Shown here: in pieces, positions 1,242 to 55,866 of the stretch
Layout of the letters: each line of letters begins with the position of its first letter
Position numbering within the stretch: position 1 is the first letter of the stretch
Assembly (NCBI RefSeq): GCF_001403735.1
Contig: NZ_CXPG01000012.1
Span: forward strand, 248,001 to 312,000
Source: Jannaschia rubra
GTDB taxonomy: Bacteria; Pseudomonadota; Alphaproteobacteria; Rhodobacterales; Rhodobacteraceae
DNA: 64,000 nt
Reading direction: 5' to 3'
Notes under the pieces: generated by a model
What the model was told of the DNA's origin: nothing
Seen by the model: the letters and a program-made list of their open reading frames with translations, nothing else
Database searches by the model: none
Program-made: the position numbers and the translations under genes

Positions 1242-3221
1242 TCAGTCCTTCGGAATGACGCGCAGTCCCAGTTCCATCAACTGGCCACTGACAGGCTCGG
1301 ACGGGGCGCCCATCATCAGGTCCTCGGCCCGCTGGTTCATGGGGAACAGGATGACCTCGCGAATGTTGGCTTCGTCCGCCAGCAGCATGACGATGCGGTC
1401 GATGCCCGCGGCACAGCCGCCGTGGGGCGGCGCGCCGTAGTGGAACGCCTTGACCATGCCGCCGAAGCGCTTGCGAACCTCCTCCTCGCCGTAGCCGGCA
1501 AGCTCGAACGCCCTGAACATGATCTCGGGGCGGTGGTTGCGGATGGCGCCCGAGATCAGCTCATAGCCGTTGCAGGCCAGGTCGTACTGATAGCCCAGCA
1601 CGTCGAGCGGGTCGCCCGACAGCGCCTCCAGCCCGCCCTGCGGCATCGAGAAGGGGTTGTGGCTGAAGTCGATCCTGCCGTCGTCGTCGCGCTCGTACAT
1701 CGGGAAATCGACGATCCAGGCGAAGGCGAAGCGGTCGGTTTCGGTCAGACCGAGTTCGTCGCCAATGACGGTGCGCGCACGGCCGGCGACGGCCTCGAAG
1801 TCCGACGCCTTGCCGCCAAGGAAGAACGCCGCATCGCCCATACCGAGGCCCAGTTGCTGACGGATGGCTTCGGTGCGCTCGGGCCCGATGTTCTTGGCGA
1901 GGGGGCCGGCGGCTTCGATATTTGTTCTGCCAAAGTACTCAGTTACTAGGCTATCTGCCTTCTTAAGATCAAAAGGATCCCCTGTCTGAATAAGATCAAA
2001 AATTTCTTTTGCATCCCTGAGAAAGTCCTCATCGAAAGTCTTTTTTATCCATTCTAGATCAGACGCATCTGCTTCCTTAGCTTTGATCCACTGTTTCAGT
2101 ATCGGAAAAAGCTCTTTGTCATAGTAAAAGTTCTGAACTTCCCGCCAGAAGATATACCCCATCCCCGGCAGCCCCTGCTCTTGCGCGAACTTGTTCATCC
2201 GATCGCAGAACTTGCGCGATCCACCTGTGGGCGCGGGAATGGCGCGGATCTCGGTGCCTTCCTTTTCCAGAAGCGACGCGAAGATGGCGAAGCCGGAGCC
2301 GCGGAAGTGGTCGGACACGTCCTGCATCTCGATCGGATTGCGAAGGTCGGGCTTGTCGGTGCCGTATTTCAGCGCCGCGTCGCGGTAGGAGATGAGGGGC
2401 CAGTCGGTATCTACCTTGCGGCCGCCGCCGAACTCCTCGAACAGGCCCTGGATGACGGGCTGGATGGTGTCGAACACGTCCTGCTGCGTGACGAAACTCA
2501 TCTCCATGTCGAGCTGGTAGAAGTCGGTGGGGCTGCGGTCGGCGCGCGGATCCTCGTCGCGGAAGCAGGGCGCGATCTGGAAATACTTGTCGAAGCCCGA
2601 GACCATCAGAAGCTGCTTGAACTGCTGGGGCGCCTGCGGAAGCGCATAGACCTTGCCGGGATGCAGGCGCGACGGCACGATGAAGTCGCGCGCGCCCTCC
2701 GGCGACGACGCGGTGATGATGGGCGTCTGGAACTCGTTGAAGCCCTTGTCCCACATCCGCTGGCGGATCGAACGCACGACGTCGGACCGCAGGATCATGT
2801 TGCGCTGCATCGCTTCGCGCCGCAGGTCGAGGAAGCGGTAGCGCAGGCGCGTTTCCTCAGGGTATTCCTGATCTCCGAAGACCATCAGCGGCAGCTCGTC
2901 CGCTGGGCCCAGCACCTCCATGTCGCGCACGAAGACCTCGATCTCGCCGGTGGGGATCTTCGGGTTCACCAGGCTTTCGTCGCGCGCCTTGACCGTGCCG
3001 TCGATGCGGATGCACCATTCGGAGCGGACCTTCTCCATCTGTGCGAACACCGGGCTGTCGGGATCGCAGAGCACCTGCGTCATGCCGTAGTGGTCGCGCA
3101 GATCCACGAACAGGATGCCGCCATGGTCGCGAATGCGGTGGACCCAGCCCGCCAGGCGGACCGTCTCGCCCACGTTCTCGCGGGTGAGGTCGGCGCAGGT
3201 GTGGGTGCGATAGGGGTGCAT
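1242..3221 (-). CDS. aspS: Aspartyl-tRNA synthetase with an in-frame insertion
   Basis: Class II aminoacyl-tRNA synthetase charging tRNA-Asp, 659 aa. The N-terminal OB-fold anticodon-binding domain (about 1-105, with [11 protein letters not shown]) is followed by the catalytic core with motif 2 ([10 protein letters not shown], near residue 220), the bacterial GAD insertion domain, and motif 3 ([11 protein letters not shown], near 600). The start at 3221 ([12 protein letters not shown]) is chosen because it matches family N-termini and has GGAGAG upstream; the open frame extends 53 codons further without family similarity. As I recall the family, alphaproteobacterial AspRS is close to 590 aa, so this protein is about 68 residues too long. 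The surplus lies between W359 and E436 and is AT-rich, unlike the rest of the gene (see separate entry). Whether the enzyme also charges tRNA-Asn cannot be judged. Confidence 0.97.
1917..2144 (-). other. AT-rich in-frame insertion within aspS (GAD domain)
   Basis: Base composition falls abruptly to roughly 40% G+C over about 210 nt inside a gene of about 65%. It returns sharply at both ends (GGCCGGCGGCTTC on one side, GCCAGAAGATATACCCC on the other). The segment encodes residues about 360-435, between GYIFW and EAAGPLAKN, two blocks normally joined by a short linker in related AspRS. Codons are AT-ending and unlike the host (AGA, ACA, AAT, CTA, GTA, TTT). The peptide looks helical and charged (for example [36 protein letters not shown]). 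The reading frame is intact. TAAGATCAAAA occurs twice (1964-1974 and 1991-2001). No transposase, intein motif or long palindrome is present. It is interpreted as a recently acquired protein segment. Confidence 0.75.
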
Positions 3222-3260
3222 GGGAAGTCTCTCCGGGTGCGGCATGTCAGGCGTCGGCCC

Positions 3261-3289
3261 GATCAACACGCCCCCCCGGCGGCTGTCAA
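3261..3289 (-). promoter_or_regulatory. Candidate sigma-70 promoter of aspS
   Basis: On the minus strand a consensus TTGACA (3289-3284) is separated by 17 nt from TTGATC (3266-3261). The predicted start would leave a leader of about 30 nt ending in GGAGAG ahead of the aspS ATG at 3221. The -10 match is poor, so this is a candidate only. Confidence 0.35.
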
Positions 3290-3433
3290 CCGTGGACGGG
3301 CCGGGAACCGCCGGCACCGCAGGCGGTTTGACCCGTTCGATAGGGAATTCCGTTCCTGTCGGGCGACCGGGGGTTGCCATGGACGCCGCCGGCCCGTTTC
3401 CTGTGACCCGACAGGCGAAAGGGGGGTGAAGCC

Positions 3434-26632: not shown

Positions 26633-27278
26633 CCGCGCCCTCGTCGTCGGCGCGTCGGGCGGCATCGGCGCGGCCTTGGCAAACCGCTTGGACGACAGCC
26701 ACGACGTAACCCGTCTCAGCCGCAGCAGCGACGGACTGGACGTGACAGACGCAGCCTCCGTCGCGCGGATCATCGGCCCGCTGGAGGGGCCGTTCGACCT
26801 CGTGTTCGTCGCCACCGGCATCCTCGCGCCCGACGGCGCCGCCCCGGAAAAGACACTCGACGCCGTGGACGCCGAGGTCATGGCCCGCACCTTCGCGGTC
26901 AACGCCATCGGTCCGGCGCTGGTCCTGCGGGCCATCGTTCCCAAGCTGGCGGATGCGGGCAGGATCGGCGTTCTGACGGCGCGGGTGGGGTCGATCGGCG
27001 ACAACCGGATGGGCGGGTGGTATTCCTATCGCGCCGCAAAGGCCGCCGCGAACCAGATCGTCCACGGCGCCGCCATCGAGATCGGCCGCCGCAACAAGGG
27101 GTCCATCGTCGTGGCCCTGCACCCGGGCACGGTCGAGACGCCCTTCACCGAAGGTTACAAGGCCCCCAAGGTCAGCGCCGGGGAGGCTGCGGCGAACCTG
27201 ATCGACGTGCTGACCGGGCTCGACCCGGCGCAGTCGGGCGGGTTCTTCGACTATGCGGGCGACCGGATCGAATGGTAA
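26622..27278 (+). CDS. SDR family protein, C-factor-like
   Basis: A 218-aa short-chain dehydrogenase/reductase-fold protein with VVGASGGIGAALA (8-20), a short beta-alpha region, FVATGILAPDG, and YSYRAAKAAAN as the Tyr/Lys catalytic pair. It resembles the C-factor/CsgA-like SDRs often found beside photolyase genes in Rhodobacteraceae. Its start overlaps the preceding SDR by 11 nt and its end overlaps the photolyase start by 7 nt. The tight coupling suggests a common role, possibly in photolyase cofactor or stress metabolism (inference). Confidence 0.85.
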   Translation: MPTDRALVVGASGGIGAALANRLDDSHDVTRLSRSSDGLDVTDAASVARIIGPLEGPFDLVFVATGILAPDGAAPEKTLDAVDAEVMARTFAVNAIGPALVLRAIVPKLADAGRIGVLTARVGSIGDNRMGGWYSYRAAKAAANQIVHGAAIEIGRRNKGSIVVALHPGTVETPFTEGYKAPKVSAGEAAANLIDVLTGLDPAQSGGFFDYAGDRIEW

Positions 27279-28807
27279 GCCGGCCGCGCCTGATCCTGGT
27301 GCTGGGTGACCAGCTTTCCGACGACCTGTCGGCGCTGCGCGAAGCCGACAAAGACCGCGACATCGTCGTCATGGCCGAGGTGCAGGTCGAAACCGATTAC
27401 GTTCCGCACCACCCCAGGAAGATCGCCTTCCTGTTCGCCGCCATGCGAAAGCACGCGGCCCACCTGCGCGACGCGGGCTGGACTGTGCGCTATACCCTGC
27501 TCGACGATCCCGAGAATACGCACTCCATTCCGGGCGAGTTGCTGCGCGCCGCAGACGCGACCGGCGCTCAGGAAGCCATCGGGACCGAACCGGGCGAGTT
27601 CCGCCTGATCGCCGCGCTGGAGGACGGGCCGATCCCCGTGCACCTGTTCCCCGACGACCGCTTCCTGTGCAGCCACGCGGAATTCGAGGACTGGGCCGAG
27701 GGCCGCAAGGAACTGCGGATGGAATGGTTCTACCGCGAGATGCGCCGCAAGACCGGCCTCCTGATGGAGGACGGGGAACCAGCGGGCGGCAAGTGGAACT
27801 ACGACAAGGAAAACCGAAAGCCGCCGCCCAAGGGCCTGACGTCGCCGGGACCGCTGCGGCATGAGCCGGACGCTGCGACGCGCGATGTGCTGACGCTCGT
27901 GCGCGGCAGGTTCGGCAACCGCTACGGCACGCTCGACGGGTTCTGGTTCGCCACCGACCGCGCGGGCGCGCTGGCGGCGCTCGACCACTTCATCGCCAAA
28001 AGCCTGCCGTCCTTCGGAGACTATCAGGACGCCATGGTCATGGGGCAGCCGTTCCTGCACCACGCGATCCTGTCGGTCTACCTCAACGCGGGCCTTCTGG
28101 GCTGGCGCGAGATCTGCGAAGCGGCGGAGGCGGCTCATGATGCAGGCGACGCGCCGCTGAACGCGGTGGAAGGCTTCATCCGGCAGATCATCGGCTGGCG
28201 CGAATTCATCCGCGGCGTCTATTTTCGCGAGGGGCCGGATTATACGGCGCGCAACGAACTGGGCGCGTCGCGCGACCTGCCGGAGTTCTACTGGTCGGGC
28301 GATACCGACATGGCATGCCTGCGCGAATGCATCACGACGACCATGGCCGAGGCCTATGCCCACCACATCCAGCGCCTGATGGTGACGGGCAATTTCGCCT
28401 TGCTGGCCGGGCTCGACCCCCATCAGGTCCATGAATGGTATCTGGTCGTTTATGCCGACGCCTACGAATGGGTGGAATCGCCCAACGTCATCGGCATGTC
28501 GCAATTCGCAGACGGCGGCGTGGTGGCGTCGAAGCCCTATGTGTCGGGCGGAAACTACATCAACCGGATGTCGGATTACTGCAAATCCTGCACCTATGCG
28601 GTGACGAAGAAGGTCGGCGAAAACGCCTGTCCGTTCAACATGCTCTACTGGGACTTCCTCGACCGTCACCGCGACCGCTTCGACGGCAATCCCCGCATGG
28701 CGCAAATGTACCGGACCTGGGACAGGATGGACGCCGATCACCGCAAGGCGGTGCTGGACGGGGCCGCCGGGGTGTTGGCACGTCTGGACGCAGGCGAACG
28801 CGTCTAG
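27272..28807 (+). CDS. Cryptochrome/photolyase, FeS-BCP type ((6-4) photolyase-like)
   Basis: A 511-aa iron-sulfur bacterial cryptochrome/photolyase. The N-terminal antenna domain opens with LILVLGDQLSDDLSAL, as in PhrB. The C-terminal FAD domain carries GWREFIRG and the Trp/Tyr-rich segment around HEWYLVVYADAYEWVESPN. Four cysteines at 349, 437, 440 and 453 (DYCKSC plus NACPFN) match, one residue off, the [4Fe-4S] ligands known in Agrobacterium PhrB. PhrB-type enzymes repair (6-4) photoproducts; some relatives act as blue-light regulators (CryB of Rhodobacter), so repair versus signalling is not settled here. Confidence 0.93.
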   Translation: MVSRPRLILVLGDQLSDDLSALREADKDRDIVVMAEVQVETDYVPHHPRKIAFLFAAMRKHAAHLRDAGWTVRYTLLDDPENTHSIPGELLRAADATGAQEAIGTEPGEFRLIAALEDGPIPVHLFPDDRFLCSHAEFEDWAEGRKELRMEWFYREMRRKTGLLMEDGEPAGGKWNYDKENRKPPPKGLTSPGPLRHEPDAATRDVLTLVRGRFGNRYGTLDGFWFATDRAGALAALDHFIAKSLPSFGDYQDAMVMGQPFLHHAILSVYLNAGLLGWREICEAAEAAHDAGDAPLNAVEGFIRQIIGWREFIRGVYFREGPDYTARNELGASRDLPEFYWSGDTDMACLRECITTTMAEAYAHHIQRLMVTGNFALLAGLDPHQVHEWYLVVYADAYEWVESPNVIGMSQFADGGVVASKPYVSGGNYINRMSDYCKSCTYAVTKKVGENACPFNMLYWDFLDRHRDRFDGNPRMAQMYRTWDRMDADHRKAVLDGAAGVLARLDAGERV

Positions 28808-40013: not shown

Positions 40014-41831
40014 ATGACCCACCCCCTTCACGACGCCAACGCGACCCCCGCCGGGGGAAAGCCGCTGGGCGACCTGCCCGAATGGAACCTCGACGACCTC
40101 TACACGTCAGAGACCGCGCCGGAGCTCCTGTCCGACCTCGCATGGCTCGAAAAGGAATGTGCGGCCTATGCGACCGACTACGAAGGCAAGCTGGCCGGGC
40201 TGACCGGCGACGAGATGCTGCGTGCGATCCAGCGCAACGAGAAGATCGACGAGATCGCGGGCCGCATCATGTCCTACGCGGGGCTGCGATATTACCAGAT
40301 CACGACGGACGGCGGGCGCGCCAAGTTCATGTCCGACATGCAGGACCGCATCACCGTGATGACCGCGCCGCTCGTGTTCTTCGGGTTGGAGTTCAACCGC
40401 ATCGACGACGCCGAGCTGCAGGCGATGTACGAGGCCAACGCCGATCTCGCCCGCTATCGTCCGGCACTCGACCGGCTGCGCGCGATGAAGCCATACCAGC
40501 TCTCGGATGAACTGGAACGGTTCCTGCACGACACCTCCGTTGTCGGCGCGGCCGCATGGAACAAGCTGTTCGACGAGACCATCGCGGGGCTGACCTTCGA
40601 CGTCGATGGCGAGCCGCTGGGGATCGAGGCGACGCTGAACCTGCTGACCGACAGCGACCGCGCCCGGCGCGAGGCCGGCGCCCGTGCCCTGGCCGACGTC
40701 TTCGGTCGCAACGTCCGCACCTTCGCCCGCGTTCACAACACCCTGACCAAGGAAAAGGAAATCGTGGACCGCTGGCGCGACCTGCCCTCGCCGCAGGCCG
40801 CGCGGCACCTGGCCAACGACGTCGAGCCCGAGGTGGTGCAGGCGCTTCGCGATGCCGTCGTCGCCGCCTATCCGCGCCTGTCGCATCGCTACTACGCGCT
40901 CAAGGCGAAATGGCTCGGTCTCGACCGCCTGCAAGTGTGGGACCGTAACGCACCCCTTCCGATGGAGGAGGATCGCATCATCGGCTGGGACGAGGCCCGC
41001 AAGACCGTCATGGATGCCTACGCCGGTTTCTCGCCCGAGATGGCCAGACTGGCGGAGCCCTTCTTCGACCGCGGCTGGATCGACGCCCCGGTGAAGCCCG
41101 GCAAGGCGCCCGGCGCCTTCGCGCATCCGACTGTCACGACCGTGCATCCCTATGTGATGCTGAACTATCTGGGCAAGCCGCGCGACGTGATGACGCTCGC
41201 GCATGAATTGGGCCACGGCGTCCATCAGGTACTGGCCGCCGGTCAGGGCGAGATGCTGTCGGCCACGCCGCTCACACTGGCCGAAACGGCGTCGGTCTTC
41301 GGCGAGATGCTGACCTTCCGCGCCATGCTCGACGCCGCCCCAACCAAGGCCGCGAAGAAGGTCATGCTCGCCAAGAAGGTCGAGGACATGATCAACACCG
41401 TGGTCCGCCAGATCGCCTTCTACGACTTCGAATCCAAGCTGCACGCGGCCCGCCGCGACGGGGAGCTGACGCCCGACGACATCGACGCGCTGTGGATGTC
41501 GGTGCAGGCCGAAAGCCTGGGGCCGGTCTTCGACTACATGGACGGTTACCAGCACTTCTGGGCCTACATCCCGCACTTCGTCCATTCGCCCTTCTACGTC
41601 TATGCCTACGCCTTCGGGGACGGTCTGGTGAACGCGCTCTACGCCGCTTACGAGGATGCGCCCGACGGGTTTCAGGACAAGTATTTCGACATGCTCCGCG
41701 CGGGCGGGTCAAAGCACCACAGGGAACTTCTGGCGCCCTTCGGACTGGACGCCTCGGATCCGGCTTTCTGGGACAAAGGCCTGTCGATGATCGAAGGCTT
41801 CATCGACGAATTGGAAGCGATGGAGGACTGA
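40014..41831 (+). CDS. pepF: Oligoendopeptidase F (M3 family)
   Basis: A 605-aa cytoplasmic zinc peptidase cleaving short peptides. The M3 signature TLAHELGHGVHQ gives zinc ligands His397 and His401 with catalytic Glu398; the third ligand Glu lies in ETASVFGEM about 25 residues on. The C-terminal part has HFVHSPFYVYAYAFGD, which contains the conserved substrate-binding His/Tyr residues. Length and architecture are normal. A TATGGG box lies about 25 nt upstream of the start. Confidence 0.95.
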   Translation: MTHPLHDANATPAGGKPLGDLPEWNLDDLYTSETAPELLSDLAWLEKECAAYATDYEGKLAGLTGDEMLRAIQRNEKIDEIAGRIMSYAGLRYYQITTDGGRAKFMSDMQDRITVMTAPLVFFGLEFNRIDDAELQAMYEANADLARYRPALDRLRAMKPYQLSDELERFLHDTSVVGAAAWNKLFDETIAGLTFDVDGEPLGIEATLNLLTDSDRARREAGARALADVFGRNVRTFARVHNTLTKEKEIVDRWRDLPSPQAARHLANDVEPEVVQALRDAVVAAYPRLSHRYYALKAKWLGLDRLQVWDRNAPLPMEEDRIIGWDEARKTVMDAYAGFSPEMARLAEPFFDRGWIDAPVKPGKAPGAFAHPTVTTVHPYVMLNYLGKPRDVMTLAHELGHGVHQVLAAGQGEMLSATPLTLAETASVFGEMLTFRAMLDAAPTKAAKKVMLAKKVEDMINTVVRQIAFYDFESKLHAARRDGELTPDDIDALWMSVQAESLGPVFDYMDGYQHFWAYIPHFVHSPFYVYAYAFGDGLVNALYAAYEDAPDGFQDKYFDMLRAGGSKHHRELLAPFGLDASDPAFWDKGLSMIEGFIDELEAMED

Positions 41832-53473: not shown

Positions 53474-54541
53474 TCATCCGCGGCGAATGCGGTTCACATG
53501 GCCCATCTTGCGGCCCGGCCGGACCTCGGCCTTGCCGTAGAGATGTACCTGCGTGGCCGGCGCGGCCAGCAGGTCGGGCAGGCGATTCATGTCGTCGCCG
53601 ATCAGGTTCTCCATCACCACGTCCGCATACCGGCCCCCGTCGCCCAGCGGCAGGCCGGCGACGGCGCGGATGTGCTGCTCGAACTGGTCCACGGCACAAC
53701 CGGCCTGCGTCCAGTGGCCCGAGTTGTGAACGCGGGGCGCGATCTCGTTCACGATCAGGCCGTCCGACGTCACGAACAGCTCCACCCCCAGAACGCCAAC
53801 GTAGTCGAGCGCATTGAGGATGCGCCCCGCCAGCAGTGCCGCATCGGTGCGCTGCGCCGTGCTCAGGGTCGCGGGAACGGTGGTGGTCCGCAGGATGCCG
53901 CCCCGGTGGACGTTCTCGCCGGGGTCGTAGCAGACGACCTGCCCGTCGAGGCCCCGCGCGGCGATCACGCTCACCTCGCGCGCGAAGTCCACAAATCCTT
54001 CGAGGATGGCGTCCTGCCCCTCCATCGCCGCCCAGGCCGCTTCTGCGTCGGCGGCATCGTCGATGCGGACCTGCCCCTTGCCGTCATAGCCCAGCCGCCG
54101 GGTCTTGAGGATCCCGGGCATGCCGATCACATCCAGCGCCGCGCGCAGCGAGGCCAGGTCATCCACCGCCCGGAACGGCGCGCATCGCAGCCCCAGCCCT
54201 TCCAGAAAGGTCTTCTCGTCCAGCCGGTCCTGGCTGACGGCCAGCGCCCTTACCCCGGGCCGGATCGGCCGCGCCTGCTCCAGCAGGTCCAGCGCGGCGG
54301 CCGGCACGTTCTCGAACTCATAGGTGATGACGTCGACCGACCGGGCGAAGGCGTCGAGCGCCGCCGTGTCGTCGTAGCCTGCCGTCGTGCAGGCCTGCGC
54401 CACCTGCGCGGCGGGGGCGGCGCCCGGCTCGTAGATATGGGTGACGTATCCCAGACGGCTTGCGGCGACCGACAACATCCGGCCCAGCTGCCCGCCGCCC
54501 AGGATACCGATGACCGCCCCCTGCGGCAGGGGCGCGGTCAT
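53474..54541 (-). CDS. purK: 5-(carboxyamino)imidazole ribonucleotide synthase
   Basis: A 355-aa ATP-grasp enzyme carboxylating AIR in purine synthesis. It has [17 protein letters not shown] (11-27), [21 protein letters not shown], and [27 protein letters not shown]. The ATG overlaps the purE stop (ATGA), so the two subunits are translationally coupled. The open frame upstream into purE is a shadow. Confidence 0.96.
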
Positions 54542-55023
54542 TCCGGAACCTCGGGGATGCCGGCCGACAGGTCGGCACGCCAGCGGTCCAGCCGCGCGGC
54601 CAGCCCGTCGTCCGACAGCGCGAGGATGCCCGCCGCCATCAGCCCCGCGTTCACGGCACCCGCCGCCCCGATGGCCATGGTCGCCACGGGAAATCCGCGC
54701 GGCATCTGCACGATGGAATAGAGCGAATCGACTCCGGACAGCGCCTCTGTCCGCACCGGCACGCCGATCACCGGCAGCCGCGTCTTGGACGCCATCATGC
54801 CGGGCAGATGCGCGGCCCCTCCCGCCCCCGCGATGATGACCTTCAGCCCCCGCTCCACCGCGCCGCGGCCATAGTCCCACAGGCGATCCGGCGTGCGGTG
54901 CGCCGACACGATCCGCGCCTCATGCGCGACGCCCAGCGTGTCCAGGATGTCGGCCGCGCCCTTCATCGTGGGCCAGTCCGAGGTCGAGCCCATGATGATG
55001 CCGACGGGGGGTGTCCGGGTCAT
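54538..55023 (-). CDS. purE: 5-(carboxyamino)imidazole ribonucleotide mutase
   Basis: A 161-aa enzyme converting N5-CAIR to CAIR, the partner of PurK. It has [20 protein letters not shown] at the N-terminus, [13 protein letters not shown] with the catalytic His, and [13 protein letters not shown]. Length is typical. It lies 7 nt downstream of the DUF465 gene. Confidence 0.97.
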
Positions 55024-55030
55024 GGCGGCC

Positions 55031-55231
55031 TCAGGCGATGATGTCGGGGGTCAGCTCATCCTCGATCCGCGCGATGCGGTCCTTCAGATGCAGCTTCTGG
55101 CGCTTCAGGCGGCGGATCACCAGCAGGTCGGGGTTCGTCCGCTCCTCCAGCGCGCGGATGGCCACGTCAAGATCGCGGTGATCCTGGCGCAGCACTTCCA
55201 GCCGCATCCTCAGCACGTCCTCGTGGTTCAT
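55031..55231 (-). CDS. YdcH family (DUF465) small protein
   Basis: A 66-aa helical protein with the DUF465 pattern: two antiparallel helices ([19 protein letters not shown] and [21 protein letters not shown]), ending in an acidic tail. Function is unknown. The start at 55231 ([14 protein letters not shown]) has GGAGAG upstream. It is co-oriented with purE-purK. Confidence 0.88.
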
Positions 55232-55314
55232 CTCTCCGGGGGTCTCGTTCACGGCATCGGCCTTCGCGCAGGGGTGGCCGCCTGTTACACCGGGCGGGGC
55301 TGCGTTCCAACCGT

Positions 55315-55343
55315 CTTGCACGCGCCCGCCCGCATCCCCACAT
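55315..55343 (+). promoter_or_regulatory. Sigma-32 (RpoH)-type heat-shock promoter of hsp20
   Basis: CTTGCAC (55315-55321), a 14-nt spacer and CCCCACAT (55336-55343) match the heat-shock consensus CTTGAAA / CCCCATNT closely. The element ends about 73 nt before the hsp20 ATG, and no competing sigma-70 pair is seen. Confidence 0.65.
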
Positions 55344-55416
55344 TGTTGGCAGACCCGGCGCCGCAGGATTGGGCCGGGGCAGACGATCGGATCGCTTCGC
55401 GAAAGGACCCGAAGAC

Positions 55417-55866
55417 ATGACCAAGCCGACCTTCGGCACCCATCCGTTCCTTCTGGGCTTCGATGAACTCGAACGCCTGGTGGAACGAACCGTCCGTACG
55501 GGAAACGACGGGTATCCGCCCTACAACATCGAACAGACCGGAGAGACCGGCTTCCGCATCACGCTGGCCGTCGCAGGCTTTGCCAAGGAAGACCTGTCAA
55601 TCACGCTCGAGGATCGCCAACTGGTGATCCGCGGCCGGTCCGCCGACGACACCGCCCGCGTCTATCTGCACCGCGGGATCGCCGCGCGGCAGTTCCAGCG
55701 GGCCTTCGTGCTGGCCGATGGGGTGGATGTCGCGGGCGCGGGCCTGGAAAACGGACTTCTTCACGTCGATCTGAACCGTTCCGCCCCCGAAAACGTTGTC
55801 AGGACGATAAGGATCGAATCGGGTCGCCCCGACAGGTCCCCGTCCCGCCAGACGACCGAAGCCTGA
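55417..55866 (+). CDS. Hsp20/alpha-crystallin small heat-shock protein
   Basis: A 149-aa chaperone holdase of the IbpA type. An N-terminal FLLGFDELERLVERT and YPPYNIEQTGETGFRITLAVAGF lead into the alpha-crystallin domain (about 33-125), which has the IbpA-like LEDRQLVIRGR and LHRGIAARQFQRAFVLADGV. The C-terminal IRIESGRPDRS is a short tail. The start has AAGGACC upstream. The DUF1150 gene follows at 34 nt, as in many alphaproteobacteria, and both are served by the sigma-32-like promoter. Confidence 0.93.
   Translation: MTKPTFGTHPFLLGFDELERLVERTVRTGNDGYPPYNIEQTGETGFRITLAVAGFAKEDLSITLEDRQLVIRGRSADDTARVYLHRGIAARQFQRAFVLADGVDVAGAGLENGLLHVDLNRSAPENVVRTIRIESGRPDRSPSRQTTEA

Follow-up and report, generated by a model that had tools for sequence, protein, structure and literature searches.

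A recurrent slot for dissimilar peptide inserts in the aspartyl-tRNA synthetase of Jannaschia rubra and other Rhodobacteraceae

How did the aspartyl-tRNA synthetase (AspRS) of Jannaschia rubra come to contain a peptide encoded by foreign-looking DNA, and is the feature confined to this genome? The window analysed here, a stretch of 64,000 nucleotides (assembly GCF_001403735.1, contig NZ_CXPG01000012.1, positions 248,001 to 312,000 of the forward strand), carries the gene, aspS, in which an initial annotation had placed an AT-rich insertion at 1917..2144, inside the GAD domain. The segment is real and in frame; its position was slightly offset, as the insert occupies 1917-2141 and 2142-2144 is the arginine codon of the conserved GYIFWR. 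The feature is also larger than that annotation described: it is a recurrent slot for several insert families across the Rhodobacteraceae. In this family the site may be empty, may hold a conserved insert of 25 residues (class A), or may hold an insert of 37-94 residues drawn from a large and dissimilar set (class B, defined by length and the absence of an AQE motif; the class B set includes L049, which has 31 residues and resembles a class A relative, and the lower length is hence given as 37). We have very little doubt that the site is a multi-allelic hypervariable slot. The features concerned are:

1242..3380, minus strand: aspS, AspRS; open reading frame (ORF) of 712 aa, likely start at residue 54, giving about 659 aa
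1917..2141, minus strand: class B cassette in aspS; 75 codons, third-position G+C content (GC3) 0.37, belonging to the main (largest) insert group
2142..2165, minus strand: conserved left border GMGYIFWR, in the GAD domain ahead of the hairpin tip
1890..1916, minus strand: conserved right border EAAGPLAKN

The inserted peptide (EVQNFYYD...FGRTNI) ends directly before EAAGPLAKN, which starts at 1916, and replaces the six-residue GAD hairpin tip of the insert-free same-genus relative L009, a net gain of 69 codons. Its foreign composition, noted in the initial annotation, was confirmed, with a G+C content of 0.377 vs 0.656 in the flanks and a GC3 far below the flanking 0.89. GC3 minima over 60 codons were compared among the window's 42 ORFs that have 250 or more codons and are likely to be coding; that of aspS was the lowest (0.35), the runners-up having 0.45. 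The AspRS protein had a single match in its own genome at E<=0.001, namely itself, and the proposal of a horizontally gained protein segment in a single-copy essential gene was supported. An assembly artefact, also raised in the annotation, is very unlikely, because comparable inserts were found at the same codon in dozens of further genomes.

The host domain of the slot is GAD (PF02938), which is split here by the cassette. The bacterial-type AspRS domains PF00152 (tRNA-synt_2, E 1.7e-107) and PF01336 (OB fold, E 1.7e-17) were present, and only the first half of the GAD model (positions 1-49 of 95) was aligned to the window's AspRS, with 23.1 bits just under the cut-off of 23.4; in the whole-genome search the model was unmatched at E<=0.001. 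Insert-free relatives of the same genus matched AspRS on both sides of the slot, and L009 aligned with solved AspRS structures across the slot region. Through this alignment the slot was located in the insertion domain of E. coli AspRS (1c0a), between YIKVN and EGINSPVAKF. The segment had been judged not to be an intein, and this held: there was no match to a splicing domain, it has 75 aa, and Pfam gave AspRS domains only for the protein, with no match when the segment was searched by itself. The peptide had also been called helical and charged. The charged composition, poor in proline and cysteine, is common to the inserts; a helical character is weakly suggested by composition, the helix cost averaging 0.52 kcal per residue in inserts vs 0.64 in flanks, and the helical moment exceeded that of shuffled sequences in 42 of 67 insert rows (a few rows being repeated).

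Within the window's own genus, seven of 20 genomes carried class B inserts, no two alike, and 13 were empty. For the family, 394 genomes were drawn, nearly one per genus, and 382 had an aspS match. From these, 121 were selected, comprising most genomes with two matches and, in addition, genomes with a weak single match; 100 were read and 21 left unread. Three genomes with two or three matches and a strong best one (G176, G211, G335) were not among the 121, and the 261 genomes outside the selection, these three included, were assumed, unread, to be without a large insert, match coordinates being known only for the best part. Parsing of 99 read loci (L123-L222 minus L221) gave 44 class B, 44 class A and six empty sites; of the five left unparsed, inspection by eye assigned four to class B, among them L176, which a contig end truncates, and the fifth (L219) was unclassified. 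The main script failed on L039, L159, L176, L178, L186 and L219. The hundredth genome read, G031 (L008), was class B. Class B was thus present in at least 49 of the 382 genomes (13%) and class A in 44 (12%).

The same mixture was seen in two further genera. In Rhodovulum (genus of G405, 16 genomes) 12 sites were empty and four class B, G687 being identical to Rhodovulum steppense L046 over the compared stretch; in the genus of G383, seven genomes were searched and six matched, three of them empty and three with dissimilar class B inserts. Elsewhere in the class, the flank matches were at most 34 codons apart in 24 genomes from other families. The initial annotation had named a host-like segment common to most Rhodobacterales as the observation that would count against it; instead, most genomes examined lacked a large insert, the class B carriers differed from each other, and the composition was foreign. 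No published report of a variable AspRS insert in Rhodobacteraceae was found in a literature search of open-licence PMC papers.

Class A (EKTADSVAQELGIKVKEAQAKLKSGEVEGG type) was seen in many aspS genes of the Roseobacter clade (e.g. L032-L038, L126-L127), with GC3 near that of the host. It was scattered on the flank tree described below (25 changes, at least 14 forced), and class A rows of the TADSVAQELGIxVKEAQA-like type matched a profile of the window's insert group at best with E 0.53, which is not credible. In L209 and L216 (G203, G327) the N-flank matches spanned 264 nt for 83 query residues, which leaves about five additional residues ahead of the slot and may mark a second variable loop.

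A GC3 below that of their own flanks was seen in all 67 distinct class B inserts measured. This number comprises 57 rows of the main script, six further distinct inserts and four that the script had missed (L039, L159, L178 and L186, the last over 53 codons); in the set of 57, which includes L049, GC3 was lower in 57/57, with a mean of 0.494 vs 0.831 in the flanks. Class A was near the host (0.669 vs 0.731; lower in 41 of 54), as were the empty tips, which are tiny (lower in 41 of 60). The flanks of class B and empty genes had equal GC3 right up to the junction.

Similarity links between inserts were drawn with phmmer at E below 0.01. The 63 distinct class B inserts then fell into one group of 37, which includes the window's, five groups of two to four, and 14 singletons. 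Main-group inserts have a common C-terminal pattern around GDxxxAxxLxxxxFG. Their kinship was uncoupled from that of the genes that hold them: in a Mantel test of 36 of the 37 members (one with short flanks was dropped), insert and flank similarity were correlated at r 0.039, a value reached or exceeded in 503 of 2000 permutations. In just one of the 36 rows did insert and flank agree on the nearest neighbour. The insert closest to the window's, L214, belongs to a different genus, is 32% identical and ranks 22 of 35 by flank. A smaller group ending GNWMEAAGP or GHWMEAAGP was common to Rhodovulum and the genus of G383 (L294, L046).

Closely related genes differed at the slot. L046 and L158 carry unrelated inserts in flanking DNA that is 92.5% identical. 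Flank identity is 88.2% between L003 (class B) and the empty L012, and 88.3% between the partial gene L051 (class A) and L185 (class B). On a tree of 166 flank rows, class B required 36 changes, of which at least 17 were forced by starred branches; the tree was built with FastTree only, so its support values need caution, and L050, L051, L173, L191 and L210 were dropped for short flanks. A DNA tree of the own genus required at fewest 5 changes (bootstrap 5-6), and a single clade for its seven class B rows was rejected by the approximately unbiased (AU) test (p 1.98e-9), a test that in strict terms applies to groups chosen in advance of the tree. Taken with the foreign composition, the uncoupled kinship indicates that the cassettes have very probably been exchanged horizontally between genomes, with tight borders. 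At 10-20 codons beyond the 3' end of the insert, local third-position similarity was lower in pairs with class B (deviation +0.060 with no B member, +0.008 with one and -0.038 with two; the pairs are not independent), which would fit at most a weak donor tract, on the 3' side.

The cassette, once resident, appears to be constrained. L045 and L191 share an insert in which nonsynonymous divergence (dN) was 0.01 and synonymous divergence (dS) 0.26 over 41 codons, vs dN 0.08 and dS 0.56 over 275 flank codons. This pair suggests purifying selection on the resident insert. It speaks against local hypermutation and against point changes driven by positive selection, and favours replacement of the insert as the origin of the variety. 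Of the other homologous pairs tried, two were identical in insert and flanks and in the rest the insert dS was saturated or above 2.

Four other accounts of the slot were weighed. The one that survives best, though we consider it unlikely, is a permissive loop: the hairpin tip would tolerate anything, and functionless inserts of random origin would drift in and out. The enormous variation in length and sequence of the inserts and the common empty state agree with this, and tip length varies in other alphaproteobacteria too, two of the 24 genomes from other families having 13 and 34 codons between the flank matches. However, random insertions would not give 37 of 63 distinct inserts linked by similarity at the same codon in many genera, nor would the account predict the conserved insert of L045/L191 or the shared charged, proline- and cysteine-poor composition, and in none of those 24 genomes does the tip exceed the 34 codons.

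Somewhat less probable still is an adjustment to partners, in which the inserts would tune, species by species, how the enzyme contacts GatCAB or tRNA-Asn when asparagine is supplied by the indirect route. The solved relatives include 4wj3, the P. aeruginosa AspRS in complex with GatCAB, and the own genome held no second, AsnRS-like (asparaginyl-tRNA synthetase-like) match to AspRS, a weak piece of evidence. The GAD domain is described as specific to bacterial-type AspRS (PMC4206432) and the insertion domain as helping to position the tRNA (PMC4237437), which also suits this account. Against it, GatCAB and tRNA should be conserved even across those sister species that have unrelated inserts or none, and co-adaptation supplies no reason for exchange across genera.

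A selfish in-frame mobile element is very improbable. The initial annotation had compared the segment with the Rickettsia palindromic elements (RPE), which are described (PMC10969869) as in-frame elements like miniature inverted-repeat transposable elements (MITE-like), about 150 bp long and repeated in many genes. The likeness lies in an in-frame, AT-rich peptide segment in a housekeeping ORF of an alphaproteobacterium, with apparent horizontal spread. It does not hold further: RPE are repeated in many genes, whereas here there is one site, no palindrome and many dissimilar peptides. The absence of a strong palindrome, already remarked in the annotation, was borne out, with no inverted repeat of at least 10 nt in 1850-2250; there was no direct repeat flanking the window's insert that would mark a target duplication, and the insert gave no signal of RNA structure (z 0.29).

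The annotation had proposed searching the segment alone for copies in other genes. No second copy of the window's insert was found in its own genome at E<=10, the only match being aspS. With a profile of 16 main-group members, strong matches in 60 relatives and 390 genomes of the order were confined to aspS of Rhodobacteraceae, and in 385 genomes of the class the sole strong match was the window's own; the profile misses known class B genomes (G006, G010 and G015 were unmatched), and the smaller insert groups were not searched outside aspS. Weaker matches outside aspS began at E 0.004 in the relatives and the order. In G829, from another family of the class, one locus (L296) matched with E 8.6e-5 for one genome, in an open frame of 724 aa without AspRS motifs; about 0.03 matches as good would be expected over the 385 genomes, and the locus may be a remote cassette relative. 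None of the AspRS motifs sought was present at nine weak-match loci outside aspS (including L296 to L299).

Equally improbable is an old vertical insert with very fast divergence and frequent loss, as the common C-terminal pattern of the main group and the partly clustered class B label on the gene tree would allow, against the uncoupled similarity of insert and flank, the foreign GC3, the constraint in the testable pair and the near-identical genes with unrelated inserts.

On balance we incline to the reading that the GAD hairpin tip is a slot for horizontally exchanged peptide cassettes, perhaps kept diverse through recognition by an antagonist or partner, and that the window's segment is one of its alleles. 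Recombination with tight borders would swap the tip of 6-8 residues for an in-frame cassette of 37-94 residues, and resident cassettes would later be lost or replaced. A single, widely diverged group would supply the majority of the cassettes; smaller groups and singletons would make up the remainder. Variety would thus arise by replacement and not by local hypermutation, with the resident cassette under purifying selection. The GAD hairpin would be a contact surface recognised by an antagonist (a phage protein, an interbacterial toxin or another AspRS-binding factor) or, less likely, by a partner; a swapped, projecting cassette would alter this recognition, and a rare-type advantage would maintain many alleles alongside the empty site.

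That the cassettes serve to escape or tune a recognition event is put forward tentatively. More doubtful, though possible, is the specific version in which a widespread AspRS-targeting agent of the Rhodobacteraceae, be it a phage, a toxin or a plasmid factor, docks on the hairpin. The cassettes would then be interchangeable alleles of an essential enzyme, for resistance or self-recognition, and would be traded between genera much as restriction specificity modules are. Escape from an antagonist, or self-recognition, is favoured on two grounds: conflicts of this kind would leave exchange across genera, a wealth of alleles together with empty sites, and a constrained resident cassette; and neither partner tuning nor a neutral loop accounts for the recurrence of related modules. 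Microcin C-type antibiotics inhibit AspRS (PMC9239234); as they act via a released isoaspartyl-nucleotide, a hairpin cassette would be no obvious answer to them.

Several results weigh against this reading. No antagonist or donor reservoir was found in searches of phages, plasmids, family libraries and the PDB, and linked genes were checked for two neighbours only. Specifically, there was no credible phage or plasmid match to the window's insert, the only one searched (best phage E 0.3); no credible Pfam, PHROGs, NCBIfam or PADLOC family common to the insert group, 16 members giving single-member matches at best E 0.0012; and no credible PDB relative of the inserts, the best profile match being a designed protein (E 0.03). 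On the 166-row tree, class B was more clustered than shuffled labels (36 changes vs a mean of 46.4; 0/500 as low), and some vertical inheritance therefore has to be admitted. In the own genus its labels were no more clustered or scattered than shuffled ones (mean 6.0; 119/500 as low), and the starred branches alone forced only two changes. Long-tract homologous exchange would predict donor DNA beside the inserts, and little sign of it was seen in the near flanks. Insert GC3 rose weakly with the flank GC3 of the host gene (r 0.34, p 0.0096), as partial amelioration would give. The estimate of constraint comes from one usable pair and 41 codons.

The two neighbours were examined by tblastn at 19 loci of the genus (about 1.5 kb of flank); the names DUF1800-like and Cfa-like are given from their sequences and not from a family search. 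The DUF1800-like gene adjoined aspS in four of six class B and seven of 13 empty loci, the Cfa-like gene in one of six and five of 13; neither of the two was linked to class B, in what is a weak test. Among viral contigs, 16 had the DNA pattern of the left border, and only L228 (IMG/VR) also had the right border, with an empty site; this aspS at 2600-2900 may be misassigned host DNA.

Two known kinds of variable segment invite comparison. The target-recognition domains of type I restriction HsdS subunits are exchangeable specificity modules; as here, mutually dissimilar modules are swapped horizontally within a conserved frame, whereas in aspS that frame belongs to an intracellular synthetase that is essential, and no specificity role is known for the slot. 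Conserved signature indels restricted to particular lineages also exist in aminoacyl-tRNA synthetases; class A (25 aa), an insert in a synthetase loop, looks like one, whereas class B is neither conserved nor clade-specific and has a foreign composition.

Two further observations concern the window itself. At the N-terminal end of aspS, 53 residues of the ORF precede the conserved start; Met54 is the more likely start, and this extension is probably untranslated, since several relatives' matches that begin upstream contain stops. Local 60-codon GC3 minima of 0.45-0.53 were seen in other long ORFs, at 26633-28804 and 55042-55863 on the plus strand and 53477-54919 and 40110-41708 on the minus strand; such ORFs may contain foreign stretches or may not be coding.

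Slow and mainly vertical evolution is what one expects of essential housekeeping enzymes. Repeated uptake of dissimilar peptides of foreign composition in the sole AspRS, with the rest of the gene unaffected, would point to a selective agent that acts on translation and has so far gone unrecognised. For annotation, the slot is a warning that models of the GAD domain can fail, as here, on aspS of Rhodobacteraceae. For the biology of the family, it may offer a sequence-level handle for finding that agent, and the cassettes a natural set of peptides tolerated by a synthetase.
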